Source: Chloroherpetonaceae bacterium
Lineage (GTDB): Bacteria > Bacteroidota > Chlorobiia > Chlorobiales > Chloroherpetonaceae
Assembly: GCA_028277445.1 (NCBI GenBank)
Contig: JANQGG010000042.1
Span: 1 to 64,000 of the forward strand
Length of the DNA: 64,000 nt
Direction of reading: 5' to 3'
Under the pieces are notes generated by a model. The model was not told the DNA's origin, made no database searches, and worked only from the letters and a program-made list of their open reading frames with translations. The translations under genes were made by a program, and so were the position numbers. Of this stretch, positions 7,529 through 28,927 are shown piece after piece (positions within the stretch are counted from its first letter, which is position 1; every line of letters begins with the position of its first letter).

Positions 7529-7691
7529 CGAAATTCCCCCGCTTTAAATCTATAAAATGAGAGATAATCCCCTTTATTTCAAAAAAAATTTTAAACCCAA
7601 TAAACGTTTTGTTTTTTGAAGGAATTTTCTTAAATAGTAATAGTTATCATTAAGTAAAAAACATCTTTTCAACCTCAAAAAAATCTCAATT

Positions 7692-8234: not shown

Positions 8235-8336
8235 TTGATTCGCATTGGAAAATTTGGGCATGTTGTAGAAGAATATCTTCAACGTCCCCAGGAAATTTCC
8301 TAACGAAACGAGTTCCCTTAAATTTTCACATATCCT

Positions 8337-8363
8337 AAAAGGCGTTTGTAAAAACGCCTTTTT
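8337..8363 (+). terminator. Rho-independent terminator after the peroxiredoxin gene
   Basis: AAAAGGCGTTT (8337-8347), a four-base loop, then AAACGCCTTTTT. The 11-bp stem ends in a T-run. Confidence 0.88.
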
Positions 8364-8555
8364 ACTTATGAAAGTCGGAATTAAAATGACCATCATCGCT
8401 CGTCCGGTTTTGGGGAAAGAAATGTTCGAACTGATCTCATTAGTCAATAGTGCAGCAAATGGTTGAGAAATGTGCGTGGTTAATACCATTAGGCTGGCCG
8501 CAGTTGTTAAAGGTGCAGCTATGGTATTTTCAATTCAAACCAAGAACAATTCTTT
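8364..8555. other. Gene-poor stretch with a short interrupted frame
   Basis: A plus-strand frame beginning ATG at 8368 runs 32 codons (MKVGIKMTIIARPVLGKEMF...) to a TGA, and the same frame then stays open to about 8567. It could be a decayed small gene, but it lacks a ribosome binding site and I recognise no family. Nothing else is seen. Confidence 0.25.
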
Positions 8556-9455: not shown

Positions 9456-9473
9456 AAACTAAGGGTGAAATAA

Positions 9474-12165: not shown

Positions 12166-12372
12166 ATGGCAGTTGAAAAGACCGTAGGATCGTCTAGCTT
12201 GGTTGAAGTTATCGACCGCATTTTAGACAAAGGCGTTGTTGTTGATGCCTGGATCAGAGTTTCTTTGGTGGGCATTGAATTGCTTGCTGTAGAAACGCGC
12301 GTTGTTGTCGCTTCAGTTGAAACTTATTTGAAATATGCTGAAGCTATTGGCTTAACTGCACGTGCCGCTTAA
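12166..12372 (+). CDS. gvpA: Gas vesicle major structural protein GvpA
   Basis: The 68-residue hydrophobic shell protein that polymerises into the ribs of the gas vesicle wall. The sequence is near-canonical: [20 protein letters not shown], then [20 protein letters not shown], then [16 protein letters not shown]. An excellent ribosome binding site (AAAAGGAG) precedes the ATG. It is the first gene of the cluster and is separated from the next by two hairpins, which would allow it to be expressed well above the downstream genes. It is the only GvpA proper here; GvpJ and the GvpS/M-like protein are the minor paralogues. Confidence 0.98.
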
Positions 12373-12471: not shown

Positions 12472-13137
12472 ATGACTGCTGCAAATTTGGACGAAAAAAT
12501 TAGTGTACTCGTTGAAAATGTCCTTGACTCCTACGATACAAGGCTTCAAAATGTGGAAAATGTTCTAACCACGCCTTGCGAGTTTTTAGAAATGCAAGAT
12601 GTGATCACGGAAGAACGAAAAAAACGAGATGGGATTGCAGCGCAGATAAAAGAGAGTTTGGCCCAAAATGAATCGTTGCGTAAGAAAGATTTTGATGAAA
12701 TGATTCAGCGGATTATGGCGGCGCAGGAGCAACGAGAGCATCAGGTGAGGGCTTTATTGAAATCGTATTTAAGCGCACAAAAACAAATGGCTAACTCGTT
12801 AAGAGAAAGCCTGTTAGAATTTAAAACAGCGCTCCAAGAGAAAAATTTGGAGCGTGTAGATGCCCACAAGACATTTCTTCAGAAATTACTTCAAGATCAG
12901 GATTCCAGACGTCGAAAGGTTGAAACCCGATTAAAGGACTTTCGGGATTCACACCATGCGATGGCTGAAAATTTTAAGCAGTTACTTAATAAAGGAAAAC
13001 AGCTCAGGATAAAAGATTTAAAAGAATTACTGAGCGAGTTTGAAAATGATAGACAACATCGTGCTAAAGGTCATAAACGCCGTAAAGAAGAAGTTGATGT
13101 GTTGCTCAATCGTACGCCTCGGTCCAGTGCAGGGTAA
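12472..13137 (+). CDS. Coiled-coil gas vesicle cluster protein, GvpC-like candidate
   Basis: A 221-residue, highly charged, almost entirely helical protein directly after gvpA, the position occupied by gvpC in several other gas vesicle clusters. No signal peptide or membrane segment is seen. Similar units recur, for example SYLSAQKQMANSLRESLLEF near residue 98 and DFRDSHHAMAENFKQLL near 156, and RESLLEF at 111 against KELLSEF at 184. The repeats are not as regular as the 33-residue units of cyanobacterial GvpC. I infer an outer reinforcing or scaffold role from position and composition only. The C-terminus is basic (RAKGHKRRKEE). Confidence 0.55.
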   Translation: MTAANLDEKISVLVENVLDSYDTRLQNVENVLTTPCEFLEMQDVITEERKKRDGIAAQIKESLAQNESLRKKDFDEMIQRIMAAQEQREHQVRALLKSYLSAQKQMANSLRESLLEFKTALQEKNLERVDAHKTFLQKLLQDQDSRRRKVETRLKDFRDSHHAMAENFKQLLNKGKQLRIKDLKELLSEFENDRQHRAKGHKRRKEEVDVLLNRTPRSSAG

Positions 13138-13216
13138 TTACATATACGCCGGTATGATGCCGGTATTATGATTAAAGTTTAATACTCAACAATTAACAAA
13201 TCTAAAAAAATAAATT

Positions 13217-14194
13217 ATGGGACTTGCAGAAGAAATGACACGGCTTGCCGAAACTATTGTTTCGGAAAAACAACAGAGGGTTTCAGACAATGAAACGCTA
13301 AAAAATGATATTCATGAAAAATTGAATGACTTTTCAGCTCAAAGGGTACAAGTAAGCAAAGCGTTGGAGCAAAATGCTAAAGAGCTTATGGATAGTCTTC
13401 AGGATTACGTTGATAACACATTAGTTTCTGAAAACGAAGAAATGCAACTTCAGATCAAAGAATTTATGCAGAAGCTTGAAACTGAACGTGAGGAAAGAAA
13501 TAAAGTCCAAACAGAAACTTTAAATCAATTCAATAAGAATTTGGAAAGTTCAGTTGCTGAGATGATGAAACTCTTTAGTCAGCAAAGACAAGAGATGAAA
13601 AAACAACAGCAGCAAGAGTTCAACCAATTCATGGTTGACTTGAAATCTTCAGTGGGTGAAAGCCGTAAAGCGGCACAACAAATATTGGGTGACTTTAAAA
13701 AAGAAAACCAAGAGCGAGCCAAAACATTGCAAAAAGAATTGTCAGGATTTGCAAATGATCTGGCTAAATCAAGCAAAACCAAACTTAAAGAGTACGCAAA
13801 AGAACGCAAGCAAGCACAAGATGTTTGGGCAAAAATGCAGAAAAATGGCGTAAGTAAAAAAAAACCAGCATCTAAAAAAAGTGTAGAAGCCAAGGAAAAA
13901 AAGACGATTGAGCCTAAAGAAGAGAAAAACGAGTTTTTTGAAATACCCAGCGCCGAAGCATACCTAAAACCTGAAGAACCGCAACAAAAAAGCCAGAAAG
14001 GATTTACTGATAATCCTAAAAAAGATATTCAAGAACGCGTTTTCGACTATATACAGGCACATCCCGAAGGCGTTAAAGTTAGCGAAATGGAGGGGCCGTT
14101 AAATGAAAATCGCTTAAAATTAGGCGTGGCAGCCCGCAAGTTGCTTGAAGAAAACAGGGTTAAAAAAATAGAGAACATGTATTTACCGTTGTAG
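13217..14194 (+). CDS. Coiled-coil gas vesicle cluster protein with C-terminal helix-turn-helix-like domain, GvpC-like candidate
   Basis: A 325-residue protein. Residues 1-205 are continuous amphipathic helix rich in Gln, Lys and Glu. NQFNKNLESSV at residue 103 and NQFMVDLKSSV at 136 are exactly 33 residues apart, the GvpC repeat length of cyanobacteria. A third, weaker unit (GFANDLAKSS) follows after 40. Residues 205-255 are a Lys/Ala/Glu-rich linker. Residues 264-325 (DIQERVFDYIQAHPEGVKVS and following) resemble a small winged-helix domain of the kind that ends some coiled-coil gas vesicle proteins. The role of shell reinforcement is inferred. The second possibility is a regulatory DNA-binding function through the C-terminal domain. 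Confidence 0.55.
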   Translation: MGLAEEMTRLAETIVSEKQQRVSDNETLKNDIHEKLNDFSAQRVQVSKALEQNAKELMDSLQDYVDNTLVSENEEMQLQIKEFMQKLETEREERNKVQTETLNQFNKNLESSVAEMMKLFSQQRQEMKKQQQQEFNQFMVDLKSSVGESRKAAQQILGDFKKENQERAKTLQKELSGFANDLAKSSKTKLKEYAKERKQAQDVWAKMQKNGVSKKKPASKKSVEAKEKKTIEPKEEKNEFFEIPSAEAYLKPEEPQQKSQKGFTDNPKKDIQERVFDYIQAHPEGVKVSEMEGPLNENRLKLGVAARKLLEENRVKKIENMYLPL

Positions 14195-14259: not shown

Positions 14260-15210
14260 ATGGCAGATGATTTTTCTACCGTGCTTGAGCCCATTGCTCA
14301 ACCGGATTTCGTTGAAACCCCATATATCAAAAAATTAACCGAAAGGGCTTTAACCTATATTAAAGCAGGCTTTCCAATTCACTTCCGTGGTCCATCGGGT
14401 ACGGGCAAAACAACCATTGCGCTTCATTTGGCGCATAAAATTGCCCGACCAGTGGTTTTATTGCATGGCGATGCTGAGTTTACAACATCGGATTTGGTGG
14501 GTGGTGAACATGGGCATCGGTTTCAACGCACCATTGATAATTTTATTCATACGGTTCATAAATACGAAGAAAATATGGTTAAACGGTGGGTTGATAATCG
14601 GCTGACCGTAGCATGCAAGCATGGGTTTACAATGGTTTATGATGAATTTACGCGCTCGCGCCCCGAAGCAAATAATGTGCTGCTTTCAATTCTTCAGGAA
14701 AAGCTATTGGATATGCCTGCCGGTAAAACCGATAATCCTTATTTGAAAGTACACCCGGATTTTGTGGCGATTTTCACCTCTAATCCTGAAGAGTACGCGG
14801 GGGTGAATCGAACTCAGGATGCGTTGCGCGATCGTATGGTGACAATGGATGTGGATCATTTCGATTTGGAAACCGAAGTGGAAATCACCAAAACCAAGTC
14901 TGGTTTGAACCGAAAAGACACCAATAAAGTAGTGAGCATTGTTCGCGGATTGAGAGAGTCGGGAAAAACAGAATTTGAGCCTACGATTAGGGGAAGCATT
15001 ATGATCGCGAAAACGTTAAATGTGATGGGTATAAAGCCCGAAAGCCACAACGAGGCATTTCGTGAAATATGCCGCGATATTCTTGCCAGCGAAACCAGTC
15101 GGGTGGGTTCAAAAACTAATCAACAACGTGTTAAGAAAATTGTCGAGGAGTTGATTGATCTTAACACAGTAGCAACAGTTAATGGAAAAACAAAATCGGA
15201 GGTCGCGTGA
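14260..15210 (+). CDS. gvpN: Gas vesicle protein GvpN (MoxR-like AAA+ ATPase)
   Basis: A 316-residue AAA+ ATPase required in other organisms for gas vesicle enlargement. It has Walker [13 protein letters not shown] near residue 44, the GvpN-specific VLLHGDAEFTTSDLVGGEHG, Walker B-like FTMVYDEFTRSRPEANNVLL and sensor-type FTSNPEEYAGV. Its length is normal. The last bases overlap the GTG of the next gene, implying translational coupling. Confidence 0.97.
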   Translation: MADDFSTVLEPIAQPDFVETPYIKKLTERALTYIKAGFPIHFRGPSGTGKTTIALHLAHKIARPVVLLHGDAEFTTSDLVGGEHGHRFQRTIDNFIHTVHKYEENMVKRWVDNRLTVACKHGFTMVYDEFTRSRPEANNVLLSILQEKLLDMPAGKTDNPYLKVHPDFVAIFTSNPEEYAGVNRTQDALRDRMVTMDVDHFDLETEVEITKTKSGLNRKDTNKVVSIVRGLRESGKTEFEPTIRGSIMIAKTLNVMGIKPESHNEAFREICRDILASETSRVGSKTNQQRVKKIVEELIDLNTVATVNGKTKSEVA

Positions 15211-15581: not shown

Positions 15582-15872
15582 ATGAGTGAAGCCATACAAT
15601 CCGTTCGAGCATCAACACTGGCCGATATTTTAGAACGAGTTTTAGATAAAGGCGTAGTCATTGCCGGCGATATTAAAATTCAAATTGCTGACATTGATCT
15701 GTTGACCATAAAACTCCGATTGTTGGTTGCTTCCGTTGATAAAGCCAAAGAAATTGGTATAAACTGGTGGGAAGAAGATGCCTACCTTTCAACCAAAGCA
15801 AAGTATAAAGAGCTAAAAGAAGAAAACGAAGCGTTAAAAGCGCGAGTTCAGAATCTGGAACAAAATTCTTAA
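15582..15872 (+). CDS. gvpJ: Gas vesicle minor structural protein GvpJ
   Basis: A 96-residue GvpA paralogue. The core LADILERVLDKGVVIAGDIK, then IQIADIDLLTIKLRLLVASV, then DKAKEIGINWWE is diagnostic of GvpJ. A hydrophilic coiled-coil tail follows (KAKYKELKEENEALKARVQN). In studied organisms GvpJ is a minor, essential shell component, probably at the tips or in nucleation. It lies 24 bases after the preceding gene and 16 bases before gvpH. Confidence 0.95.
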   Translation: MSEAIQSVRASTLADILERVLDKGVVIAGDIKIQIADIDLLTIKLRLLVASVDKAKEIGINWWEEDAYLSTKAKYKELKEENEALKARVQNLEQNS

Positions 15873-15888
15873 GAGGAGTAAGTTGGTT

Positions 15889-16425
15889 ATGACAGAAAAA
15901 AAGGACGATAAAAAAGGGATTGATATAGACTTTGGACTTGGAAAGATAAATCTTGGCGGCATTTTCGATGGCATTGAAAAACTGGTTGATGCAGCGGCAA
16001 AGCTAGAACAATTGGGTGGTGAGTTTAAAAAAGAAGGCGAAGTTGATTTAAGTCATCTTAAACAAGGAATGAAAGGCGTTTTTGGCGTTTCGGTCAAAAC
16101 CGGAATCGGCGGCGAAAATCCGGTCGTTGAATCCTTCGGTAATATTAAAAAAACACCCGAAGGCCCGAAAGTTGAAGAGGAGCGTGAGCCTTTAACCGAT
16201 CTGTTTGATGAAAATGATGAGATTGTGGTGATTATGGAAATGCCAGGCGTTAGCAAAGAGGATATCCAGGTTGATTTGAATGGCGATATCTTTGATGTAT
16301 CGGCAAGCGCCAAAACCCGAAAATATCGAAAAGAGATTCTATTGCCGAACGCCGTAAAATCGGAGGATATGGCCTGGACGTTTAACAATGGCATCTTTGA
16401 AGCAAGGATGAAAAAATGCCCATAG
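15889..16425 (+). CDS. gvpH: GvpH-like gas vesicle protein with Hsp20/alpha-crystallin domain
   Basis: A 178-residue protein. The ATG at 15889 is preferred over an upstream TTG because AAGAGGAG lies about twelve bases before it. Residues 1-85 form a Gly/Lys-rich region (IDIDFGLGKINLGGIFDGIE) seen in GvpH proteins. Residues 95-178 are a small-heat-shock domain: EPLTDLFDENDEIVVIMEMP, GVSKEDIQVDLNGDIFDVSA and a C-terminal [11 protein letters not shown]. GvpH acts as a holdase in haloarchaeal gas vesicle formation. The gene overlaps the next by 10 bases. Confidence 0.88.
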   Translation: MTEKKDDKKGIDIDFGLGKINLGGIFDGIEKLVDAAAKLEQLGGEFKKEGEVDLSHLKQGMKGVFGVSVKTGIGGENPVVESFGNIKKTPEGPKVEEEREPLTDLFDENDEIVVIMEMPGVSKEDIQVDLNGDIFDVSASAKTRKYRKEILLPNAVKSEDMAWTFNNGIFEARMKKCP

Positions 16426-17354
16426 CGGATTTAGGTGTTGATTCCCTGCAATTGGTAATGTTTGGTGGTAAAGGAGGGGTTGGGAAAACGACCGCCGCCG
16501 CAGCAACGGCTTTGTATCTCTCCGAATCCTACAACACGTTATTGATTTCTACTGATCCGGCCCATTCCATTGCCGATAGTTTTAGAATAAGCATTGACCA
16601 TCGAATAAAAAGTCACGAAAATATTCCAAACCTGAGTCTCTATGAAGTTGATGCCGAGCAAGCATTGGAAACATTCAAAAAAGATAATGACAAAGAAATT
16701 AAGAAATTGATGGACACATCAACCAGTTTCGATCAGGAAGATATTGATGCATTTTTAAGCTTGCCGGTTCCGGGTATTGATGAGGTGATGGGATTCAAAA
16801 CCGTTGTGGATTTAATTGATGAGGCCAAATACGAAAAATATGTGATAGATACCGCGCCTACCGGTCATGCGTTGCGATTGCTTTCTTCTCCGGGATTATT
16901 TGACGACTGGGTAAAAGTGATGGCGCAATTAAGATGGAAATACCGGTACATGGTCACTCGGTTTTCAGGGAAATACACTCCGGATGACGCCGATGACTTT
17001 CTGTTAAAGATGAAAAAAACCATCAAAAAAATCCAGAACCTTCTTCGCGACCCGGCCAAATCAAAATTTGTTGCGGTAACGATTCCCGAAACGATGGCTA
17101 TTGAAGAAACACGGCGCCTACTTTCAAGATTAGAAGCCATGCAGATTGAGGTTAAAGATATAATCGTCAATAATGTTTTAACCTCTGAAGGCTGCCAGTT
17201 CTGCATGCAAAGAAAACAAAGCCAGAAGCGTTACTTGGATGAGATTGTTTCAACCTTTTCGAATCAAAAACCAACCATCATTCCATTACAACCCTCTGAT
17301 GTTTCAGGGTTGGATTCGCTCAGAATCATCAGAGATATTTTGTTTGAAGACTAA
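16416..17354 (+). CDS. Get3/ArsA-type ATPase in the gas vesicle cluster
   Basis: A 312-residue P-loop ATPase of the TRC40/Get3/ArsA family. It has deviant Walker [13 protein letters not shown] (residues 17-28), switch [14 protein letters not shown] and switch [16 protein letters not shown]. The zinc-type CxxC pair is Cys260/Cys263 in [17 protein letters not shown], the motif that holds Get3 dimers together. Arsenite-pump ArsA proteins are usually duplicated; this is a single unit. Get3 captures hydrophobic tail-anchored segments, so a role in shielding GvpA-type subunits is a reasonable inference. The gene overlaps gvpH and shares TAATG with the CDC48-like gene, so the three are translationally coupled. 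No arsenic-resistance gene is nearby. Confidence 0.9.
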
Positions 17355-19507
17355 TGGACGAAACTCAAAACAAATTTAAAGTTAAAGAAGCCCTCCAAAA
17401 AGATGTCGGGAGAGCAATATGTCGAATTGACCCTGAAAGCATTCGGCAATTTGGTTTTTCAGCCGGCGAAGTGGTGTTATTGCAGGGCAATCGTAAAACA
17501 CCGGTCAGGATAATGCCGTGCTATCCCGAAGATCGGGGCAAACAATCAATTCAGATGGATGGCATTACGCGTGCCAATGCTCAGGTTGGGTTGGAAGATA
17601 AAATTCAGATTCTGAAAGTTGATGCCAACCCTGCCTCGCGAGTTGTACTGCAATCATTAACCAACGGAGCGAGACTCAAAGATGAAGACAGCCGATATAT
17701 CGGTACGTTGATTGACGGATTGCCGGTTCTTAAGGGCGATAAGCTTCGGGCGAGTTTGTTTGGCACAAAAAGCACGGAGTTCCAGGTATTGGAAACTAGC
17801 CCGGAAGGCGTGGTTCAAATCAATACCTCAACGGCGATTCGTATGAAATCCGACTTGCCCGGTGAAAGCAAATCGGCTCAGGTTGCTTATGAGGATATTG
17901 GTGGGTTGGGCTTGCAAGTACGCCGGATTCGAGAAATGATAGAATTACCATTGCGCTTTCCTCAATTGTTCGATCGTTTGGGTATTGAGCCGCCGAAAGG
18001 AGTGTTGTTGCATGGCCCGCCAGGCACCGGTAAAACATTAACCGCACGAGCCGTTGCCAACGAAACGGATGCGTTTTTTATCAGCATTTCTGGCCCGGAG
18101 ATCATGGGCAAGTTTTACGGCGAAAGCGAAGCGCGCATTCGAAAAGTGTTTGAAGACGCCTCTTCACATGCGCCGGCAATTATTTTTATAGATGAAATTG
18201 ATGCCATAGCCCCGAAACGGGAAGATATGGGCGGTGAAAAACAGGTTGAGCGTCGTGTGGTTGCGCAACTCCTGGCGCTAATGGATGGTTTGAAATCGAG
18301 GGGACAGGTTGTTGTAATTGGCGCAACAAACCTGCCAAACGCTTTGGATCCGGCATTACGAAGACCTGGCCGGTTCGATCGCGAAATTATTATCCCGATT
18401 CCCGATAAGCATGCCCGGCAAGAAATCCTGGGGATTCACACGCGCGGCATGCCGCTTGATGAGGATGTTCGTTTGGACATTTTAGCGGAAAAAACACATG
18501 GCTTTGTTGGCGCCGATCTTGAAGCGCTGACCCGTGAAGCGGCCATGATTACGCTTCGGAAAATTCTGCCCGAAATAGATTTTAATCTTTCAAGCATACC
18601 TTACGAAACCTTAATGACGCTTCAGGTTAAAATGTTGGATTTTCAAGAGGCCATGAAAGAAGTAGAACCTTCGGCCATTCGGGAATTTTTTGTAGAAGTG
18701 CCCAGCGTAAAATGGGAGGAAGTTGGCGGATTGGAAGGCATCAAGCAGGAGCTTGAAGAAGCCATTTTGTGGCCTTTGGACTATGCCGATTTGTTTCAAA
18801 AAACCGGCGCAAAACCCTCCAAAGGAATCTTGCTTCACGGGCCGTCGGGTACGGGTAAAACATTATTGGCTAAAGCGGTAGCGAATGAAAGCGGGGTGAA
18901 TTTTATTTCCATCAAAGGCCCGGAATTGATGAACAAGTTTATTGGCGAGTCTGAACGCGCCGTTCGGGATGTATTTAAAAAAGCAAAGCAAGCTTCGCCA
19001 ACCATTTTGTTCATTGATGAAATAGATACCTTAATTCCGAAACGCGGCTCGGAAATCGGAGGCGCTAGCGTAAGCGAACGAGTCATTGGCCAGTTTTTAA
19101 CTGAAATGGATGGTATTGAAGAACTTCAGGGCGTACTGGTGCTTGCCGCTACCAATCGCCTGGATCTCATTGATGAAGCATTGCTAAGAAGCGGACGGTT
19201 TGATTTGCATCTGGAAGTGCCTAAACCCGACCGCAGAAACCGTGAGCGCATTTTTGAAATTCATACGGCAAATAAACCACTGGCAGAAGAAGTCAGTTGC
19301 AGCACGTTGGCTGAAATAACCGAAGGCATGGTAGGCGCCGATATTGAGTTTATTTGCAGGAAAGCTGTTATGATGGCCATCAGGGAAAATATCGGGAAAT
19401 TGAAAACCTCCGAGCTTAGCGCTGATCGCCCAATTTATATAACCAATCAACATTTTGATAAAGCTATTGAACAGTTTAAAGAAATGAGCAAACAAACTGT
19501 TAACTGA
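17354..19507 (+). CDS. CDC48/VAT-type double-ring AAA ATPase
   Basis: A 717-residue ATPase of the archaeal VAT / eukaryotic p97 family. It has an N-domain (about residues 8-165, double-psi barrel plus CDC48_2 type), a D1 ring with Walker A GPPGTGKT at 221-228 and Walker [11 protein letters not shown] near 277, and a D2 ring with GPSGTGKT at 496-503 and [10 protein letters not shown] near 551. Both rings carry arginine-finger regions ([15 protein letters not shown]), so both should be active. It threads and remodels proteins. In bacteria this family is rare but recurs in gas vesicle clusters. The start overlaps the Get3-like stop by one base. The ring probably extracts or recycles misassembled shell protein (inference). 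Confidence 0.93.
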
Positions 19508-19520
19508 AAAACAACTGATT

Positions 19521-20558
19521 ATGTCGAAAGAAAAAACATTTATTCACGCATTTATTGAAAAAAGCGATGAATTAGATTTTGATGCAATTCCAGGAGAATT
19601 AAAGCTTATTGAGTACAACGATGTACTTGCTTTAATTACGCAAAGGGAAGAGCAAATAAGCGCGAAACACGACAATCAAATTTTGGCCAATCTGTTGCTT
19701 AAACATCAGCAGTATATCGAAGTCTTTATGAACCAAGGATTTACAACGATCTTGCCGGTAAAGTTGAATACCTCCTTTGATTCGCAAAAGCAGGTTAAGG
19801 CGATCCTTGAAGAATCGTACCCATTTATAAAACGAGAGTTTAATGAGATTCGTAATAAAGTGGAATATGATGTGGTTTGCACTTGGGTAGATTTTAATTC
19901 GGTACTTAACAAAATCGGGTCGGAGCCCGAAATAATTGAACTTAAAGATGCAATCTCAAAAGATCCATCCGGCCCTATGTTCGATGATCAAATGCGCATT
20001 GGCATGTTAATTAAAAAATATATCGATCAACTAAATAGTAAAATAGAAGCCGAAATTGAAACAAAGTTAAAAGAAATATGCCTGGAAATGAAAGCCAATC
20101 AAACCATGAATGATCAAATGATAGGGAACTTGGCCGTTTTACTTGATAAATCTAGTGAAAACGCTTTCGATAGGCGTATTCGGGAACTTGATCGTGATTT
20201 TAAAGGTACGTTGAATTTCAGATGTATTGGCCCTTTGCCGGCATACAACTTCTTTACCATAGAGTCGGTTGAAATTGGCTTGGAAGCTTTTCGATTGGCA
20301 AAAAATCAATTGGGTTTAAAAGATCGGTTTTCACTGAACGATATTAAAAGAGCTTATAAAACAAGAGCGTTTGATGAGCATCCCGATACCCAAAAAAATC
20401 GTGAGGCCTATAACGAGCGTTTTAATGAACTCAATAAATCGTACAAGCTGCTTAGCAGTTATGCCGAAGCCTTTGAAAACATGTTCATGAAAGAGCATAC
20501 GGAGTATTCGGAGGAACTGCTCTCGCAGCATAGTCAATTACTTAAACTAAAAGATTAA
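19521..20558 (+). CDS. GvpF/L-family protein fused to a C-terminal J-domain
   Basis: A 345-residue protein with two parts. Residues 1-250 follow the GvpF/L plan, with TTILPVKLNTSF (the usual LPVKFGT block), NLAVLLDKS and the terminal FRCIGPLPAYNFF. Residues 260-315 are a DnaJ-like domain: KNQLGLKDRFSLNDIKRAYK, the HPD motif at 287-289 in DEHPDTQ, then FNELNKSYKLLSSYA, matching helices I-IV of a J-domain. With HPD intact it could stimulate an Hsp70. It is the first of five GvpF/L genes here and follows the CDC48-like gene by 13 bases. Confidence 0.9.
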   Translation: MSKEKTFIHAFIEKSDELDFDAIPGELKLIEYNDVLALITQREEQISAKHDNQILANLLLKHQQYIEVFMNQGFTTILPVKLNTSFDSQKQVKAILEESYPFIKREFNEIRNKVEYDVVCTWVDFNSVLNKIGSEPEIIELKDAISKDPSGPMFDDQMRIGMLIKKYIDQLNSKIEAEIETKLKEICLEMKANQTMNDQMIGNLAVLLDKSSENAFDRRIRELDRDFKGTLNFRCIGPLPAYNFFTIESVEIGLEAFRLAKNQLGLKDRFSLNDIKRAYKTRAFDEHPDTQKNREAYNERFNELNKSYKLLSSYAEAFENMFMKEHTEYSEELLSQHSQLLKLKD

Positions 20559-20561
20559 ACT

Positions 20562-21332
20562 GTGGTTAAAGAAGGAAAGTACATTTATTGCATCATTATT
20601 TCTTCCGAGGAACGCAATTTTGGGCCGGTCGGTATTGGCGGGCGGGGTGATGAAGTCATGACAATTAGCTATGATAATTTGAGCATGGTGGTTAGCAATC
20701 ATCCGTTAGCCAAATTTGTATTGAATCCCGAAAATATCTTGGCCCATGAAAAAGTCATCGAAGAAGTTATGAAAGAATATCCATGCGTGCTACCGGTAAA
20801 ATTTGGAACTATTGCATCTAACGCCGATGAAATCCGAAATTTGCTCGATCGCCGCTACCGTGAGTTTATGGATCACCTTTCGTATGTGGAAAACAAAATC
20901 GAATTAAATGTTAAGGCCGAATGGAAAAATATGGAGTTGATTTTTAATGAACTTACCAATGAAAGTAAACAGATCGGTGAGTTAAGACAGAAAATCGAAT
21001 CTTCAGTTGAAGGCGGGTCAACCGATATTAAGGTTGAGTTGGGAAAGTGCGTTAAACAGGTATTGCTTGAAAAAAAAGAAGATGAGGCCGAAACCATTTT
21101 GAACCCGTTAAAACGAGCTGCCGTTGATTATAAAATTAACAGAACAACCGGCGATGCCATGCTTTTGAATGCGGCATTTTTAGTGGATACCGGACGAGAA
21201 AAAGAGTTTGATAACATTTTGGATGATTTTAGCGAGGAGTTCGAAGATCGGATTCATTTCAATTATTCAGGGCCTTTTCCAGCCTATAACTTTGTAGATG
21301 TAGCTATCTATCCTGAAGACTGGGAGCTTTAA
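20562..21332 (+). CDS. Gas vesicle protein, GvpF/L family (second copy)
   Basis: A 256-residue GvpF/L protein starting at GTG, three bases after the previous stop. Family features are KYIYCIIISSEERNFG, LAHEKVIEEVMKEYPCVLPV then KFGTIA, MLLNAAFLVD and the C-terminal FNYSGPFPAYNFVDV. GvpF and GvpL are accessory proteins that bind GvpA and prevent its aggregation. F and L cannot be told apart reliably from sequence alone. It is closely similar in layout to the third copy at 21352. Confidence 0.93.
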   Translation: MVKEGKYIYCIIISSEERNFGPVGIGGRGDEVMTISYDNLSMVVSNHPLAKFVLNPENILAHEKVIEEVMKEYPCVLPVKFGTIASNADEIRNLLDRRYREFMDHLSYVENKIELNVKAEWKNMELIFNELTNESKQIGELRQKIESSVEGGSTDIKVELGKCVKQVLLEKKEDEAETILNPLKRAAVDYKINRTTGDAMLLNAAFLVDTGREKEFDNILDDFSEEFEDRIHFNYSGPFPAYNFVDVAIYPEDWEL

Positions 21333-21351: not shown

Positions 21352-22110
21352 ATGAGTGAAAAAGAGGGGTATTATTTATACGGCATTATCAAATCGTCCA
21401 AAGAAAAATCATTTGGCAACATTGGCGTTGGCGGCAGGGAAGATGAAGTGATAACTATTTGTAAATCAGGGTTTTGCGGGGTTGTTAGTCAATCGCCAAT
21501 CGTTCAGTATCCGGCAACCAGGGAAAATACGCTGGCGCATGAGCGGGTGTTGGAAGAAGTTATGAAGGGTTTTACGGTACTGCCGATGCGTTTTGCAACC
21601 ATAGTGGAGTCGGAAATTCAATTAAAAGGGCTTCTGGAAGATCAAGCCGATGTTTTGGATGAAGAGCTTGAAAAGCTTTCCGGTAAAAAAGAGCTGGGGT
21701 TAAAAGCTATTGCAAAAAAGGAGATCATTTTTAATGATATTGTGGAAAATGATAAAAACATAAAAGCGCTTAAAGCCAAAATTGCCAAGCTACCGGAAAA
21801 AAAATCATACTATGATCGCATTGAAATTGGCCGAATGGTTGAAGACGCGCTTGAAAAGCAAAAGCAACGTTATAAAGAAACGATTTTAGCAGCTTTGCAG
21901 CCACTGGCCGTTCAGGTTAAAGAAAATGCTCCGTTCGGCGACCGGATGATTTTAAATACGGCATTTTTTATAGATGATGCCAGGGAAGATGAGTTTGACG
22001 CCAAAATCAATGAGCTGGATGAAAAGTTAGGGGATAAAATCATTTTTAAGTATGTTGGAAACTTACCGCCTTACAATTTTGTGGAGTTAAAAATCAAACT
22101 TAAAATTTGA
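21352..22110 (+). CDS. Gas vesicle protein, GvpF/L family (third copy)
   Basis: A 252-residue GvpF/L protein with EGYYLYGIIKSSKEKSFGNI, TLAHERVLEEVMKGFTVLPM then RFATIV, MILNTAFFIDD and the terminal FKYVGNLPPYNFVELKI. It shares SSKEKSFGNIGVGGREDEV with the second copy (FGPVGIGGRGDEV), so the pair probably arose by duplication. Its stop codon overlaps the gvpG start (TGATG). Confidence 0.93.
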   Translation: MSEKEGYYLYGIIKSSKEKSFGNIGVGGREDEVITICKSGFCGVVSQSPIVQYPATRENTLAHERVLEEVMKGFTVLPMRFATIVESEIQLKGLLEDQADVLDEELEKLSGKKELGLKAIAKKEIIFNDIVENDKNIKALKAKIAKLPEKKSYYDRIEIGRMVEDALEKQKQRYKETILAALQPLAVQVKENAPFGDRMILNTAFFIDDAREDEFDAKINELDEKLGDKIIFKYVGNLPPYNFVELKIKLKI

Positions 22111-22328
22111 TGCTAATTGTTGATGACATCTTATTTGCGCCCGTTAATGGTTTGGTTTGGTTGGCTAAAAAAATTGAAGAAGTGGCTGATCAAGAAATGA
22201 GCGATGATGGGCGAATCAAAGAAAAGTTGATGGAATTGCAATTGCAATTTGAGTTAGATGAAATAACGGAAGACGAGTACAATCAAAAAGAAAAAGAGTA
22301 TTTAGCTTTACTTAATCGGAAAGCCTGA
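22110..22328 (+). CDS. gvpG: Gas vesicle protein GvpG
   Basis: A 72-residue protein beginning MLIVDDILFAPVNGLVWLAK followed by KIEEVADQE and a helical acidic tail (MELQLQFELDEITEDEYNQK), the standard GvpG plan. The ATG overlapping the previous stop is preferred over a TTG one codon earlier. It has a hydrophobic N-terminal segment and is an essential minor assembly factor in studied systems. Confidence 0.93.
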   Translation: MLIVDDILFAPVNGLVWLAKKIEEVADQEMSDDGRIKEKLMELQLQFELDEITEDEYNQKEKEYLALLNRKA

Positions 22329-22339
22329 ACCAAACGATC

Positions 22340-22675
22340 ATGGCAAGAACCAAACGTACAGTTTCTGAAAATGACATGGAAACGCAAAAAACGCCGGTTT
22401 CAAAAACAGCAGTTAAAAAACCGGCCATTGTTGAAGTTAGAGAGAAAACCGACGAGTTTTTGAAGCATGTCTTAAATGTGGAGTCGGTTAAAATCATAAA
22501 AACCTCAAAAACAGAAGAGGGGTGGCTTGCTATTGCCGAAGTGTATGAAGATAGTGCGTTTATTAAGGAATTGGGTTTAAAAACCAAGGTGAAAGACAAA
22601 AACCTCTACGAAATTCAGTTCGATTCTAACTTTGAGATTATTTCTTACGAACAGCATGGGCAAAGTAGCGATTAA
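22340..22675 (+). CDS. gvpO: Gas vesicle protein GvpO
   Basis: A 111-residue protein. The N-terminal third is basic and low in complexity (ARTKRTVSENDMETQ, VSKTAVKKPA). The C-terminal domain has GWLAIAEVYEDSAFI and KNLYEIQFDSNFEIISYEQH, the conserved GvpO core. GvpO is an accessory or regulatory protein of gas vesicle formation. It lies 12 bases after gvpG. Confidence 0.92.
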   Translation: MARTKRTVSENDMETQKTPVSKTAVKKPAIVEVREKTDEFLKHVLNVESVKIIKTSKTEEGWLAIAEVYEDSAFIKELGLKTKVKDKNLYEIQFDSNFEIISYEQHGQSSD

Positions 22676-22702: not shown

Positions 22703-23485
22703 ATGGGTTCAAATCTGATTTATGCATACGGAATCATAAAATCTGATTCGTCGGGGCTCAATCTAAGTTCGATCTCACCGGAGTTGCAAAGCTTACACAC
22801 GCATAATTTTTTTGTTCTCTACACCCATGTTTCTGAATCGTCCTTTGGGCAGCAGGCGCTTGATCGTAACATGAAAAGGGTTGAATGGGTTGAACCTCAG
22901 GTTAGGGCTCATTTGGAAATGCTTGGAACGATCATGGAGATCTGCGATATCTTGCCATTTAAGTTTGCGACGGTTTTTATATCAAAACAGAGTTTATTGG
23001 AGAAAATTGAAAGTTCCTACAATGAGCTTTCGGATAAATTTAACAGGATTGAAGGTCGGGAAGAGTGGGCGCTAAAAGTATTTGTTGATTTTGAGGTTCT
23101 CGAAAAGCAAATTGAAAAGTATAGCCAAAAGTTTAAGAACCTCGAAAACGAAATTCAGAATAGCTCTTCCGGAAAAGCCTACCTCTTAAAGAAGAAAAAA
23201 GCGGAATTGATTAAAGACGAAGTAAAAGCAATTGCGCAAATCCAGGTGAGTAATTTAATTGAACAAATAAAACCATTCGTGAAAGAAATCGTGTTTCATA
23301 ATGTTCAATCCAAAGAGATCACGCAAAAAGATTCCGATATGCTGCGTAATGTAGCATTATTGATCGATAAATCGGATAAATCAAGAGTATTCGGTATAAT
23401 TGAAAATTGGCAGAACGATAAATCAAAGGAAGGCTTTGAGGTAATTTGCAACGGCCCCTGGCCTCCATTCTCATTTACTTCTTAA
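22703..23485 (+). CDS. Gas vesicle protein, GvpF/L family (fourth copy)
   Basis: A 260-residue GvpF/L protein with NLIYAYGIIKSDSSG, the ICDILPFKFATVF block, MLRNVALLIDKSDKSRVFGI and the terminal VICNGPWPPFSFTS. The central part is a long charged helix (residues 120-195). It is more divergent than copies two and three and shares the GPWPP-FSF ending with the fifth copy, so these two form a second subgroup. Confidence 0.92.
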   Translation: MGSNLIYAYGIIKSDSSGLNLSSISPELQSLHTHNFFVLYTHVSESSFGQQALDRNMKRVEWVEPQVRAHLEMLGTIMEICDILPFKFATVFISKQSLLEKIESSYNELSDKFNRIEGREEWALKVFVDFEVLEKQIEKYSQKFKNLENEIQNSSSGKAYLLKKKKAELIKDEVKAIAQIQVSNLIEQIKPFVKEIVFHNVQSKEITQKDSDMLRNVALLIDKSDKSRVFGIIENWQNDKSKEGFEVICNGPWPPFSFTS

Positions 23486-23497
23486 TTCAGGGCACTT

Positions 23498-23707
23498 ATG
23501 GCGCAACATTTGGAGCAAGAAGAGGTTAGCGTTTTAGAGCTTTTAGATCGTGTACTTAACAAAGGCGTAATCATCAACGGCGAAATTGTAATTTCAGTCG
23601 CCGATATTGATTTGGTTTATGTTGGCTTAAAGTTGATGCTCTCTTCTGTGGAAACAATGGAAAAACTCAAGCATAAGTCGCGGCAGGAGATGTTAGAATT
23701 AGAGTAA
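23498..23707 (+). CDS. GvpA-like minor protein, GvpS/GvpM type
   Basis: A 69-residue GvpA-family protein. The core VSVLELLDRVLNKGVIINGE, then IVISVADIDLVYVGLKLMLS, then SVETMEKL has the LNKGVVI, DIDLVYV and ASVET-like pattern of GvpS or GvpM rather than GvpA. I cannot decide between S and M. It is probably a minor shell or nucleation component. It lies 12 bases after the fourth GvpF/L gene and 2 bases before the fifth. Confidence 0.88.
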   Translation: MAQHLEQEEVSVLELLDRVLNKGVIINGEIVISVADIDLVYVGLKLMLSSVETMEKLKHKSRQEMLELE

Positions 23708-23709
23708 CT

Positions 23710-24444
23710 ATGGCAACATGTATTTATGCAGTTACATATTCTCATCTTTTAGCTCATGGTGATTTAGGAAAAGGCTTGTTCGGTGAGCCGCTTCAAGCGA
23801 TTGAATATCAAAACTTATCTGCAATTGTCACCGAAACCCATCAAAACAAACCAACAAGCGAAAAAAAACATGTGCTGGAATTTGCTCAGACCGTTGAGCG
23901 ACTGTTTCGGCGCTATCCCTTAATCCCATTCCGTTATGGCGTTGTTCTAAAAAACCAGGTTAGTGTTGTCACTATTTTAAAGCAGAATGCCGGGCTTTTT
24001 CAGAGTTGGATGGATCAGTTCATTGATTCTGAAGAGTATGGTTTAAAAGTTATCCATAAACATACAGACCCACTTGAAATGTCCGATAAAGCATTCGCTT
24101 CCCATAAACTTGAATATGAAGCGTCTAATCTAAGCTCAGCTAAAAAGTATTTGGAGGAAAAGTTACGCCATTACAAAGTCGAGCAAGCACATCAGATCAA
24201 ATCTAAAAAAATTGCCGAATCCGTTCACCATGCCATGCAGGGTTCTTATAAATTAAGTCAAATTGTGTATACTAAATCGCATCAATTGATTTTGGATGCG
24301 GCGTATTTGGTTGAGAATCGAGAGGTACGAAGCTTTATCAACCGGGTTAAATCCATTCAAGCCGAACGCGGCGATTTGGAGTTTCTTTTAACAGGGCCTT
24401 GGCCGCCATATAGTTTTAGCATAATTGAAATTGAACCGGATTGA
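23710..24444 (+). CDS. Gas vesicle protein, GvpF/L family (fifth copy)
   Basis: A 244-residue GvpF/L protein with TCIYAVTYSHLLAHG, the RRYPLIPFRYGVVL block in place of LPVKFGT, LILDAAYLVENREVRSFI and the terminal LLTGPWPPYSFSIIEIE. It starts two bases after the GvpS/M-like stop and ends three bases before gvpK, so it is clearly part of the same unit. Confidence 0.92.
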   Translation: MATCIYAVTYSHLLAHGDLGKGLFGEPLQAIEYQNLSAIVTETHQNKPTSEKKHVLEFAQTVERLFRRYPLIPFRYGVVLKNQVSVVTILKQNAGLFQSWMDQFIDSEEYGLKVIHKHTDPLEMSDKAFASHKLEYEASNLSSAKKYLEEKLRHYKVEQAHQIKSKKIAESVHHAMQGSYKLSQIVYTKSHQLILDAAYLVENREVRSFINRVKSIQAERGDLEFLLTGPWPPYSFSIIEIEPD

Positions 24445-24447
24445 AAG

Positions 24448-24795
24448 ATGGATAAAAAAAATAAGGTGATCATAGAATCGGAATCTATGGATGTATTTGC
24501 TAAAGAGCTTCAGCAGTCGCAACATAGTTTGCCTTCACGAATTGACGCTAATCCCGACACGGTTGAAAAAGGCCTGGGGAAACTTGTGCTTACGTTAATT
24601 GAGCTCATTAGAAAACTTATGGAAAAACAAGCGTTACGCCGCTTAGAATCAGGTTCTTTAACGGATGAAGAAGTAGAGCGATTGGGTGAAACCTTGATGA
24701 AATTAGAAACCAAAATGAAAGAACTCAAAGATATTTTTGGTTTGAAAGATAAGGATTTAAATATAGATTTAGGCCCACTTGGAAAATTAATGTAG
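24448..24795 (+). CDS. gvpK: Gas vesicle protein GvpK
   Basis: A 115-residue protein. The GvpK core is visible: RIDANPDTVEKGLGKLVLTL, IELIRKLMEKQALRRLESGS and LTDEEVERLGETLMKLE. The C-terminus (DLNIDLGPLGKLM) is also typical. It is an essential accessory protein in several species. It is the last gene of the gas vesicle cluster; prmC starts 23 bases later. Confidence 0.96.
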   Translation: MDKKNKVIIESESMDVFAKELQQSQHSLPSRIDANPDTVEKGLGKLVLTLIELIRKLMEKQALRRLESGSLTDEEVERLGETLMKLETKMKELKDIFGLKDKDLNIDLGPLGKLM

Positions 24796-24818
24796 CGGTT
24801 TAACGCCCATAACTTTTA

Positions 24819-25703
24819 ATGGTGAAGATGACCCTTCAAAAACAGTGGGATGTACTCTCATTGCTTAAGATCACAACAGATCATTTTATCGGAAAGCAAA
24901 TGGATGAAGCTCGTTTGCAGGTTGAATATTTGTTGGCGCACACGTTGCAATTAAATCGAATGGATCTGTACTTGAATTTTGATCGGCCGGTTACGCCAAA
25001 CGAACTTGATCATTTCAGAGACCTCTGCAAACGAAAACTCCAAGGCGAACCGTTGCAATATATTTTAGGGTCGGAGCAATTTTTAGGGCTTAAGTTTAAA
25101 ACCGATTCACGGGCTCTCATTCCCAGACCCGAAACCGAAGTATTGATTGAGCTGGTATTTGAGGCTTTAAAAGAACGGGAAAACCAAGCCCGGCGTGTTT
25201 TAGATATCGGGACGGGTACCGGTTGCATTGCCATTTCAATGGCAAACCTGTTTAAAACGAGCGATGTTGTAGCCGTGGATGTTTCAGAGCAAGCATTGGC
25301 GTTGGCTAAAGAGAATGCTTTGGAAATAGGTGTAGAAAATCAAGTTGAGTTTCATTGCTGTGATGCGCTTAATGATGCGTTTCATGAAAGATTTTTTCAA
25401 GGGTTTGATGTGATTATCTCAAATCCCCCTTATATTCCCATTCGTGAAAAAGATGAGCTTCAAGTGGAAATTAAAGCGTATGAGCCTGAAATAGCCTTGT
25501 TTGTTGAAGAAGGCTTTGAGTTTTATCGCAAAATTGCCAGTGATGCTAATAAAATGCTTAATTCCGGAGGGTTACTGGCTTTTGAAATTCATTGCGAAGG
25601 AAAAGATGACATTGAAGAAATTTTGAACCGGAAGGCCTTTTCAAACATTAATTTTCATAAAGATTACTCTGGGTTATACAGGGTGGTTATCGCGGAAAAA
25701 TAA
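24819..25703 (+). CDS. prmC: Release factor N5-glutamine methyltransferase PrmC
   Basis: A 294-residue SAM-dependent methyltransferase that modifies the GGQ glutamine of release factors RF1/RF2. It has an N-terminal helical domain (DEARLQVEYLLAHTLQLNRM), SRALIPRPETEVLIE, the SAM loop VLDIGTGTGCIAISMA and the catalytic NPPY motif at residues 202-205 in IISNPPYIPIREKDE. An in-frame ATG three codons later is an alternative start. It is close enough to gvpK to share its transcript. Confidence 0.94.
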   Translation: MVKMTLQKQWDVLSLLKITTDHFIGKQMDEARLQVEYLLAHTLQLNRMDLYLNFDRPVTPNELDHFRDLCKRKLQGEPLQYILGSEQFLGLKFKTDSRALIPRPETEVLIELVFEALKERENQARRVLDIGTGTGCIAISMANLFKTSDVVAVDVSEQALALAKENALEIGVENQVEFHCCDALNDAFHERFFQGFDVIISNPPYIPIREKDELQVEIKAYEPEIALFVEEGFEFYRKIASDANKMLNSGGLLAFEIHCEGKDDIEEILNRKAFSNINFHKDYSGLYRVVIAEK

Positions 25704-25721
25704 ATAAGAAGCCCCGAAACA

Positions 25722-26915
25722 ATGAATTTATCAATTGGAATTGTCGGTGTTAAAAAAACAGGGTTATCGGTAGCCATTTTAGCGGCACAATCGGGAGCCA
25801 ATGTTCTGATCTATGATGATAACCCATCGCGCTTGCAACAAGCATTTGCTCGCTTGGAAAAATCGCTGCAAAACCGGCATGCCAAAGGTGCAATAAGCGC
25901 CGAAAAAGCTAAAGCGATCAAAGATAAAATTACGCCAATTTCAACGATCAAAAGCTTCACAGTGTGCGACTTAATTATTGAAGCTATTGATGAAAATCTT
26001 CAACGCAAAAAAAAGCTTTTTAAAGAATTAGATGAAGTTACTGACGACCATGTGATTTTAGCAAGCACAGCACAAAGCGCAAGCATTACCGCGCTTTCTT
26101 CACAGTGTTTTTTTAAGCAGCGGGTGGTGGGCGCACATTTTGTCAATTCATCTTCATCCAATGCAGTGGTTGAAGTTGTTAAAGGGATTGATTCTTCTAA
26201 CGATGTTTTAGATAAGGCCAATTTTATTTTTAAATCATTTGTAAAGAATGTGTTGATATCGAGGGAATCGCCGGGGTTTGTGATTAATCGTATATTAAGT
26301 GCGTTTTTTACCGAAGCAATAGCCATTAATGAAGAGGGAACGGCATCGTTTCAGGAAATAGATGCAATCATGCGAATGGTGGGCGGTTTCAAGCAAGGGC
26401 CGTTTGAAATGATGGATTTTATAGGTATTGATATCTGTTATACCTCTATACTTGATCTGTACAACTCATTTTTTCAGGAAGAACGGTTTCGCCCTAGTTT
26501 TTTATTGAAAACACGATTTGATGCCGGATTTTTGGGTCGAAAAACAACAAAAGGATTTTATGATTACAAAGATGCCAAAGAAGCGCCAAAAATGGGCATC
26601 AGGCAAAGTGAGATTGAATCATCGAGGTATTTTTTTGATGAAAATCACCTGACATTTTTTATGATCAAGCAAAGTATCTATGCTCGGATTATTTCAATGG
26701 TGATTAACGAAGCGCTCTTTTGTGTTCAGGAAAATGTGGCATCGGAAGGCGACATTGATATCGCCATGAAATATGGCATGCGTTTTCCTAGCGGTCCGAT
26801 TGCACTGGGTAGAGATATTGGTTTTGAAAAGGTCAAGAATATATTAAATAAACTCTATGATGAGTTTCATCATGGACGATATAAAACGACGCCGTTATTA
26901 AATATCTATCAATAA
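25722..26915 (+). CDS. 3-hydroxyacyl-CoA dehydrogenase family protein with altered motifs
   Basis: A 397-residue protein with an N-terminal Rossmann domain and two C-terminal 3HCDH helical domains (about residues 185-275 and 315-395), as in 3-hydroxybutyryl-CoA dehydrogenases. Family landmarks are DLIIEAIDENLQRKKKLFKE, SRESPGFVINRIL and GPFEMMDFIGID. The usual GAGxMG loop is replaced by GIVGVKKTGLSVA. The HFFNPVP motif reads GAHFVNSSSSNAVVEVVKG, keeping the catalytic His but losing the Asn-Pro-Val. Activity on the normal substrate is therefore uncertain. It lies 18 bases after prmC, on the same strand. Confidence 0.82.
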   Translation: MNLSIGIVGVKKTGLSVAILAAQSGANVLIYDDNPSRLQQAFARLEKSLQNRHAKGAISAEKAKAIKDKITPISTIKSFTVCDLIIEAIDENLQRKKKLFKELDEVTDDHVILASTAQSASITALSSQCFFKQRVVGAHFVNSSSSNAVVEVVKGIDSSNDVLDKANFIFKSFVKNVLISRESPGFVINRILSAFFTEAIAINEEGTASFQEIDAIMRMVGGFKQGPFEMMDFIGIDICYTSILDLYNSFFQEERFRPSFLLKTRFDAGFLGRKTTKGFYDYKDAKEAPKMGIRQSEIESSRYFFDENHLTFFMIKQSIYARIISMVINEALFCVQENVASEGDIDIAMKYGMRFPSGPIALGRDIGFEKVKNILNKLYDEFHHGRYKTTPLLNIYQ

Positions 26916-27099
26916 AATAAGAACTTGTCCGTCGTAATAGGTGAGAAATTTTGATGTGGAATTGGAAAGACTGAACTGACAATTTGATGGCTGATATCTA
27001 TGACAAAAGTATTATGATATGACCATATGACATAATTCGGCCTTTTCCGTATCTTCTCTTCAGCTAATATTGATGATTTTCAAAGTGGCATAAAATTTG

Positions 27100-28173
27100 A
27101 TGAAAAGATTAGCAGGTGAGCTAACCGAGCGTCAGCGTGAAGTTTTAGCTCTGATCATACAAAACTTTATTTTAACGGCCAATCCGGTCGGGTCACGTTT
27201 TTTAGCCAAACATTCCGATTTGGGCTTGTCGGATGCAACCATACGCAATGTTATGGCTGATCTTGAAGAAATGGGGTATGTAACGCATCCTCATACTTCA
27301 GCCGGACGTTTGCCGACGGATAAAGGCTATCGGTTTTATGTCGACTCCATTATGAAGATAAGTATGTTATCGGCACCGGAGCGATTAAAAATTGATCATC
27401 GGATTAACCAGGTTGTTGATGGAAATGCAGAATCAAACGAAATCCTGAGAGAATCATCACGAATTTTAGGCAGTATTTCCAAGCAACTGGGCGTGGTGTT
27501 ATCACCGAAATATTCAACCGGTGTATTTGAAAAGTTGGAAATTGTTTCAATTTCATCGAATAAAATCCTTGTCATTGTTTCGGTTCTTTCGGGATTTGTT
27601 AAAACCATCATGCTGGAAGTTAAAACGGAGGTTAAACGCAATAAAATTGAACCGTTGGTGGCGTTGCTTAATGAACGACTTTCCGGGTTGACCCTGGAAG
27701 AAATCCGACAAACGTTTTCCGAACGACTTTCCGGCGTAGATGATAGTACTGGACTTCTGAGATTGTTTGTTGATTCGGCAGATCGTGTGTTCGACGATCC
27801 ACCGATTAATGACCGAATTCATATTTCGGGCACCGATAACATTATTTTTCAACCTGAGTTTGAAAAACCCGAACGCATTCGTGGGATTGTTGAAATGGTT
27901 GAAAATGAAAATGTGATTGTGCATTTAGTTGAAGATTCATCGAACATGGATACCCATTTGGAAGGCCGCGAAGATATCAAGATTATTATTGGAAAAGAAA
28001 ACCGAGACAGTAAGATTAAAGATTGTAGCATTGTTACGGCAGAATACGAAGTCGGTGATGTGATGGGGGTAATTGGCGTTATCGGGCCAACCCGGATGAA
28101 TTACGCAAAAGTAGTCAGAATTCTCGATTACATGGCCAAACGTATTTCTGACAAACTAATTTCAATACGATAA
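27100..28173 (+). CDS. hrcA: Heat-inducible transcription repressor HrcA
   Basis: A 357-residue repressor. The N-terminal winged helix (LTERQREVLALIIQNFILTA then NPVGSRFLAK, and SDATIRNVMADLEEMGYVTH then PHTSAGRLPTDKGYRFYVD) is diagnostic. The C-terminal part ends in GVIGPTRMNYAKVVRILDYM. The ATG is preferred over the overlapping TTG one codon upstream. In many bacteria HrcA binds the CIRCE palindrome upstream of its own operon. I find no TTAGCACTC-N9-GAGTGCTAA between 26916 and 27100, nor before grpE. The order hrcA-grpE-dnaJ is conserved. Confidence 0.95.
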   Translation: MKRLAGELTERQREVLALIIQNFILTANPVGSRFLAKHSDLGLSDATIRNVMADLEEMGYVTHPHTSAGRLPTDKGYRFYVDSIMKISMLSAPERLKIDHRINQVVDGNAESNEILRESSRILGSISKQLGVVLSPKYSTGVFEKLEIVSISSNKILVIVSVLSGFVKTIMLEVKTEVKRNKIEPLVALLNERLSGLTLEEIRQTFSERLSGVDDSTGLLRLFVDSADRVFDDPPINDRIHISGTDNIIFQPEFEKPERIRGIVEMVENENVIVHLVEDSSNMDTHLEGREDIKIIIGKENRDSKIKDCSIVTAEYEVGDVMGVIGVIGPTRMNYAKVVRILDYMAKRISDKLISIR

Positions 28174-28215
28174 GCATCTGTTTTATTAACTTTTTAAACG
28201 AGTAAAGAATTATTT

Positions 28216-28899
28216 ATGACTCAAGGAACCAATCAAGACATTACTTTGGATAACAATCAGCCTGAAAACGAAAAGGAAAACGAAAAAAAATCACAAAAAC
28301 ATCCTAAAAAAACAGCCGCTAAAGATAGCCATAAAACTGAGCCTGTAACTTCAGATGTGGAATCACCATCATCTGCCCCTGAGAAAACGGAACAAACAAC
28401 CGATACAGAAACTGAAGCGCCAAAAGAAGAATCTCAGGAAGAACAAATCGAAGAACTTTCAAAAGAAGTGGACTCATACCGAGATAAACTCTTAAGGCAA
28501 GTGGCTGAATTTGAAAATTACAAAAAGCAAAAAGATCGCGAAATTGCAAATATTCGAAAATTTGCCAATGAAGGATTGATCCTTGATTTACTTCCTGTGC
28601 TGGATGATGTAGAGCGTGTGCTCCAAAACGCCGATAAATTTTTAGAAGAATCGCCGGATGCAAAAGCCTATGTGGATGGCGTAAAACTGATCCATCAAAA
28701 TTTGCTGAAAGCATTTGAACTAAAAGGCGTTCAGCGTTTAAATGCACTCGGGGAAAAATTTGATGTAAATCTTCATGAAGCTTTAAGCCAGATTGAAAAA
28801 GAAGGTGTGCAATCAGATACTATCGTTGAAGAGTATGTGCCGGGTTATAAGATGAACGATCGTGTGATTCGACATGCAAAAGTAGTTGTGGCTAAATAA
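28216..28899 (+). CDS. grpE: Nucleotide exchange factor GrpE
   Basis: A 227-residue DnaK co-chaperone. It has a long acidic/Lys-rich N-terminal extension (about residues 1-80), a coiled coil ([20 protein letters not shown]), [13 protein letters not shown] and the beta-domain signature [15 protein letters not shown] ending [15 protein letters not shown]. The extension makes it somewhat longer than E. coli GrpE (197 residues). Confidence 0.96.
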
Positions 28900-28927
28900 T
28901 TTTTTTGAATTAAGATTAAAAACACGA

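Follow-up and report, generated by a model that had tools for sequence, protein, structure and literature searches.

A GvpF-type gas-vesicle protein with an intact C-terminal J-domain is conserved in several bacterial phyla

We asked whether a gene in a gas-vesicle (gvp) cluster of a Chloroherpetonaceae bacterium encodes a genuine fusion of a GvpF/L protein to a J-domain, how widely such a fusion occurs, and what it might do. The gene, here called gvpF-J, lies in a window of 64,000 nucleotides (the whole stretch of DNA that was analysed). The original prediction, made from the letters of the sequence, placed an intact J-domain after the GvpF/L domain, with an HPD motif at residues 287-289. The gene and its parts are as follows.

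19521..20558, + strand: gvpF-J, GvpF/L domain plus C-terminal J-domain; open reading frame with ATG start, 345 aa
19590..20255, + strand: GvpL_GvpF domain, residues 24-245; Pfam 2.4e-43, Foldseek matches to GvpF 6L5D/4QSG
20280..20486, + strand: J-domain, residues 254-322 (Pfam core 264-313); Pfam 2.6e-9, predicted helices, PDB J-domain matches
20379..20387, + strand: HPD motif, residues 287-289, Hsp70-activating loop; position, conservation in homologues
20535..20549, + strand: C-terminal strand, residues 339-343 (LLKLK); alignments and full-length model

We found that GvpF-J is a gas-vesicle assembly protein of the GvpF type with a real, intact DnaJ-type J-domain at its end. Pfam recovered both domains, AlphaFold predicted the helices, the PDB contained structural matches, and the HPD motif is exactly where it had been placed. 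The match to PF06386 scored 149.4 bits (cut-off 23.6) over profile positions 24-244 of 245, and the match to the DnaJ profile PF00226 scored 37.5 bits (curated cut-off 27.8) over residues 264-313. In addition, phmmer against PDB sequences matched GvpF (4QSG/6L5D) over residues 47-245 and DnaJ chains over residues 263-314. Pfam detected neither the zinc finger (PF00684) nor DnaJ_C (PF01556) in GvpF-J; that is, the protein is not a class A DnaJ. A profile search of homologues for C-terminal J-domains, proposed along with the original prediction, found PF00226 at E <= 1e-5 in 43 of 45 and PF06386 in 45 of 45, which indicates that the J-domain is not a matter of chance. Because of these matches, we rejected the notion of a chance HPD motif in GvpF-J.

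The predicted structure agreed with the profile matches. A full-length AlphaFold2 model built from 17 aligned sequences had a mean pLDDT of 88.5, with J-domain helices at residues 254-264, 272-286 and 294-322 and the HPD motif in the turn between the last two. By Foldseek, this model matched the GvpF structures 6L5D and 4QSG with E values from 3.9e-12 to 1.2e-10 (the best value and a TM of 0.69 by target being for 6L5D) and thus has the GvpF fold; its end also matched J-domains in the PDB. The tail was also modelled alone and compared with DnaJ, as the original prediction had suggested. Its top PDB matches were J-domains with probability near 1, at an rmsd of 1.1-1.8 Å over ~53 columns for the best of them and 1.3 Å over 53 columns for the DnaK-bound J-domain of 5NRO chain B. 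The shortness of the domain accounts for the weak Foldseek E values of the tail (0.03 and above). By prediction, then, the J fold is present. Residues 339-343 formed a strand in the full-length model and were of low confidence in the tail-only model. This end strand follows the J-domain in nearly all of the aligned fusions, reading LVKIK in most relatives, and may fasten the J-domain to the GvpF body.

The fusion is not peculiar to the window genome; it is a conserved subfamily found in several phyla. Sixteen genomes of the same order, beyond that of the window, have full-length or nearly full-length relatives, and in one further genome of the order the fusion gene is divided over two contigs. 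Among 394 sampled genomes of the phylum, a profile of the junction gave a match across it in 19. When named genomes were scanned with the junction region, the fusion turned up in Chlorobiaceae, in many Bacteroidales and other Bacteroidia, and in a genome each of Lentisphaeria and Acidobacteriota. A search of plasmids found it on the finished plasmid record of Octadecabacter arcticus 238 (WP_015497776.1), where the annotation says no more than "GvpL/GvpF family gas vesicle protein" and its DnaJ match, 28.0 against a cut-off of 27.8, is barely above threshold. The method of searching mattered. A whole-protein, single-sequence scan of genome contigs gave no match, whereas the junction alignment did find fusions. 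A search of the phylum at 1e-12 with the tail alone returned only the window itself, since the tail is too short and divergent. No phage relatives of GvpF-J were found.

In all, the architecture occurs in at least 40 other genomes, at ~22-34% identity to the window copy. This recurrence, which includes the finished O. arcticus plasmid, refutes the idea that a frameshift, an assembly error or read-through joined two separate genes; we consider such an artefact next to impossible. Many gas-vesicle bacteria do not have the fusion, including about ten other genomes of the same order that have GvpF without it, so that the fusion is not essential to gas vesicles generally.

We placed the fusion in the GvpF/L family with a tree of the GvpF/L domain alone that included ten fusions. 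All ten formed one clade (support 96/88), in a branch with GvpF of Halobacterium and of Nostoc, and GvpL-type paralogues fell elsewhere. Support for the GvpF side of the tree, which includes Halobacterium GvpF, was 94/89. Since the fusions form one clade, independent fusions were rejected and a single fusion event is the most likely explanation. It would have occurred in a duplicate of GvpF and then spread with the clusters.

The setting of gvpF-J is that of a gas-vesicle cluster, as indicated by the genes for GvpA, GvpN, GvpJ, GvpG, GvpO and GvpK that surround it. Where no other basis is given, assignments below rest on cluster annotation and gene order in relatives.

12166..12372, + strand: GvpA-family shell protein, the presumed client; Pfam Gas_vesicle 1.6e-15
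14260-15210, + strand: GvpN
15582-15872, + strand: GvpJ-type protein
15883..16425, + strand: Hsp20/GvpH-like small heat-shock protein; Pfam HSP20 1.1e-4 and GvpH 2e-4, NCBIfam Hsp20 1.3e-37, synteny
16416..17354, + strand: single-domain ArsA/Get3-like ATPase; Pfam 3.5e-77, PDB relatives including Get3, P-loop, DPAHS and CxxC
17354..19507, + strand: CDC48/VAT-like double AAA+ ATPase, directly upstream of gvpF-J; Pfam AAA 1.4e-93, CDC48_N 1.3e-22
20562-21332 and 21352-22110, + strand: two GvpF-type paralogues without a J-domain; Pfam, tree
22107-22328, + strand: GvpG
22340-22675, + strand: GvpO
22703-23485 and 23710-24444, + strand: two GvpL-side paralogues; Pfam, tree
23498-23707, + strand: GvpA-family gene between the GvpL-side paralogues
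24448-24795, + strand: GvpK

The cluster therefore encodes five GvpF/L proteins, three of the GvpF type (including GvpF-J) and two on the GvpL side. Across Chlorobiaceae, Bacteroidia and Lentisphaeria (three phyla) the genes follow one another with little variation: GvpA, two coiled-coil proteins, GvpN, a small open reading frame, GvpJ, Hsp20, the ArsA-like and CDC48-like proteins, then GvpF-J, GvpF, GvpF, GvpG, GvpO, GvpL, GvpS, GvpL and GvpK. Sampled clusters of a related family that do not have the fusion (L056-L058) also have no Hsp20 and CDC48-like genes nearby. The Octadecabacter cluster has Hsp20 and GvpF-J and contains neither the ArsA-like nor the CDC48-like gene, indicating that the fusion is independent of the ATPase genes.

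Other features of the region are as follows. The two coiled-coil proteins between GvpA and GvpN (12472-14194 in the window) have no useful family match and a position that is conserved across phyla; it is possible that they are GvpC-like shell-strengthening proteins. The C-terminal CxxC of the ArsA-like protein is shared by half of the homologues examined (20 of 40), namely in most Bacteroidia, in Lentisphaeria and in the window; no Chlorobiaceae copy has it. From 24795 to 30115, the end of the gvp cluster is followed, after 24 bases, by prmC, then a hydroxyacyl-CoA-dehydrogenase-like gene and then hrcA-grpE-dnaJ, with no change of strand. Scans for promoters and terminators gave no more than shuffled sequences did. 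In the window genome there are two full-length Hsp70 genes and, counting gvpF-J, seven J-domain genes; there is no DnaK gene inside the gvp cluster.

The residues by which a J-domain works are conserved in the fusions. We examined 46 distinct fusion sequences, a set that leaves out the Octadecabacter copy, which also has HPD. The HPD motif, whose conservation in homologues the original prediction had made a point of, was kept in 44 of the 46, implying selection for contact with Hsp70. Among helix II and III positions, with E. coli DnaJ numbering in brackets, K276 (R22) and F301 (F47) were each kept in 44 of 46 and Y279 (Y25) in 40, with F in four others. The conserved equivalents of Y25, H33, P34, D35 and F47 fit a working J-domain. 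A simple Nei-Gojobori count, comparing the J part with the GvpF part in copies within clusters, gave dN/dS of 0.07-0.33 and 0.08-0.16, respectively; these values show purifying selection on the J part, much like that on the GvpF part.

It is also possible that the J fold has a purely structural or protein-protein role and has ceased to act with Hsp70. Loss of Hsp70 function is known for some J-like domains elsewhere, and in the window copy helix II is less basic immediately ahead of the motif (FDEHPD, compared with MKYHPD in E. coli DnaJ). However, degenerate J-folds normally lose HPD, and the fusions keep it except in copies outside intact clusters, so we regard this reading as improbable. 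Position 26, a DnaK contact, is Leu in most Bacteroidia fusions. Together with the less basic helix II of the window copy, this indicates that affinity or choice of partner may differ.

Only two of the 46 sequences have lost HPD, and both are outside intact gvp clusters. One, L022 (around 9899 of L053), has YPD and is then truncated. Its genome, of the Chlorobiales, contains no further GvpF match, and no other gvp genes were found within the 10 kb read on either side; this gvpF-J is an orphan, decaying copy. The other, L095, has LPE. It belongs to a second, separate locus of GvpA and GvpF-J (7084-10378) in a Bacteroidales genome, not in a full cluster, and the same genome has an intact cluster copy with HPD (L079). 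In L095, dN was 0.46 for the J part compared with 0.17 for the GvpF part, which is still constrained. Two cases are few, but their direction agrees with retention of HPD where the gas-vesicle cluster is complete.

The idea that a Gvp protein is linked to Hsp70 holds up in outline, given an intact J-domain and a conserved HPD; neither of the outcomes named as refuting the original prediction, a fold unlike a J-domain or an HPD lost from close homologues, was observed. The word "nascent" for the shell protein in that prediction is a guess. We think it reasonably probable that GvpF-J belongs to the class C J-domain proteins, is specific to one kind of client and passes a GvpA-family shell protein to DnaK during assembly. 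The GvpF domain would hold a hydrophobic GvpA-family protein (GvpA, GvpJ or GvpS), and the C-terminal J-domain would dock on DnaK and trigger ATP hydrolysis. The client would then be handed from GvpF-J to DnaK and stay soluble until GvpG, GvpL and GvpK bring it to the growing shell. GvpF-J would act beside the Hsp20, ArsA/Get3-like and CDC48-like proteins of the cluster as part of a dedicated proteostasis set. We infer that DnaK is bound, which protein is the client and which way it is passed. Halobacterium GvpF binds GvpA, possibly keeping it in solution (PMC9501494), and a systematic interaction study (EMBO J 2024) identified GvpF as the primary, transient partner of GvpA2 and proposed it as the chaperone of GvpA2 (PMC11445434). 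These GvpF proteins are not of the GvpF-J subfamily. Since the window cluster also encodes two plain GvpF paralogues, the client may be shared or different, and GvpF-J, as one of three GvpF-type proteins, need not be the GvpA binder of the cluster.

A more elaborate version is a hand-over chain encoded by the cluster for a hydrophobic shell subunit that resembles a membrane protein, in which the J-domain GvpF and DnaK would pass the client on to the Get3-like ArsA protein, with Hsp20 as holdase and the CDC48-like unfoldase in quality control. We consider this chain speculative and rather doubtful. If true, it would do for soluble assembly what the Hsp70-to-Get3 pre-targeting pathway does for tail-anchored proteins.

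Perhaps the J-domain instead recruits DnaK for disassembly, freeing GvpF or other Gvp scaffolds from complexes of the shell or of nucleation or, with the CDC48-like ATPase, recycling mis-assembled shell protein. Auxilin is a J-protein that recruits Hsp70 to take clathrin coats apart. CDC48-like ATPases segregate protein complexes, and in almost all clusters such a gene is directly upstream of gvpF-J. Binding of GvpF to GvpA is transient and is superseded by GvpG (PMC11445434); the Octadecabacter cluster, with the fusion and neither ATPase gene, argues against it. We judge disassembly to be a minor possibility, on the unlikely side, although nothing in the sequence alone separates it from delivery.

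GvpF-J might also sense free DnaK through its J-domain, such that vesicle assembly slows under protein stress. The window gvp cluster is co-directional towards hrcA-grpE-dnaJ, with the 24 bases to the next gene. However, this nearness was absent at all other clusters examined, so we rejected it as a general feature, and no CIRCE element was found in the window. We consider coupling to stress very unlikely.

How does GvpF-J compare to known proteins? It has the N-terminal fold and family (PF06386; 4QSG, 6L5D) of GvpF from Halobacterium, Microcystis and Anabaena, and groups with GvpF of Halobacterium and of Nostoc in the GvpF/L tree. Unlike plain GvpF, it has a C-terminal J-domain of ~70 residues and the conserved end strand, and forms a separate paralogous clade whose gene adjoins two plain GvpF copies. 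Like the class C (type III) proteins DjlA and auxilin, it joins an HPD J-domain to a client- or context-specific domain, and it shares with class C J-proteins the absence of the Gly/Phe and zinc-finger regions of DnaJ. It differs from DjlA and auxilin in having a gas-vesicle assembly protein as its partner domain, a C-terminal J-domain and a gene that lies in a gvp operon.

A 2010 survey had already noted genes for chaperone-like proteins and ATPases in gvp clusters, one of them the Chlorobi cluster of Pelodictyon luteolum (PMC2963123). Those clusters have Hsp20/GvpH and ArsA-family genes, as here; DnaJ and CDC48 go unmentioned there, and the gvp-linked ArsA of that survey has two domains, in contrast to the single-domain proteins of 304-324 aa here (PMC2963123). 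The original prediction knew of no standard Gvp protein with this fusion. That is so for the Gvp proteins in searchable papers: no link of a Gvp protein to a J-domain was found in the open literature searched, which covers few subscription journals. The fusion nevertheless makes up a subfamily conserved across phyla, and because both Pfam domains match by default, the architecture is probably already listed in domain databases. What is new here is that GvpF serves as the client domain of a J-domain protein.

GvpF has been only a proposed chaperone, and the field still asks how the strongly hydrophobic GvpA avoids aggregation before joining the shell. GvpF-J, kept over deep divergence with its catalytic motif, ties this pathway to Hsp70 in a way that can be tested by one point mutation, and it adds a class of client-dedicated J-proteins. 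It may also be of use for producing gas vesicles in other hosts, in which aggregation of shell protein may limit yield. Our results suggest that bacteria with the fusion feed the sticky protein of the vesicle wall to the general chaperone Hsp70 during assembly.
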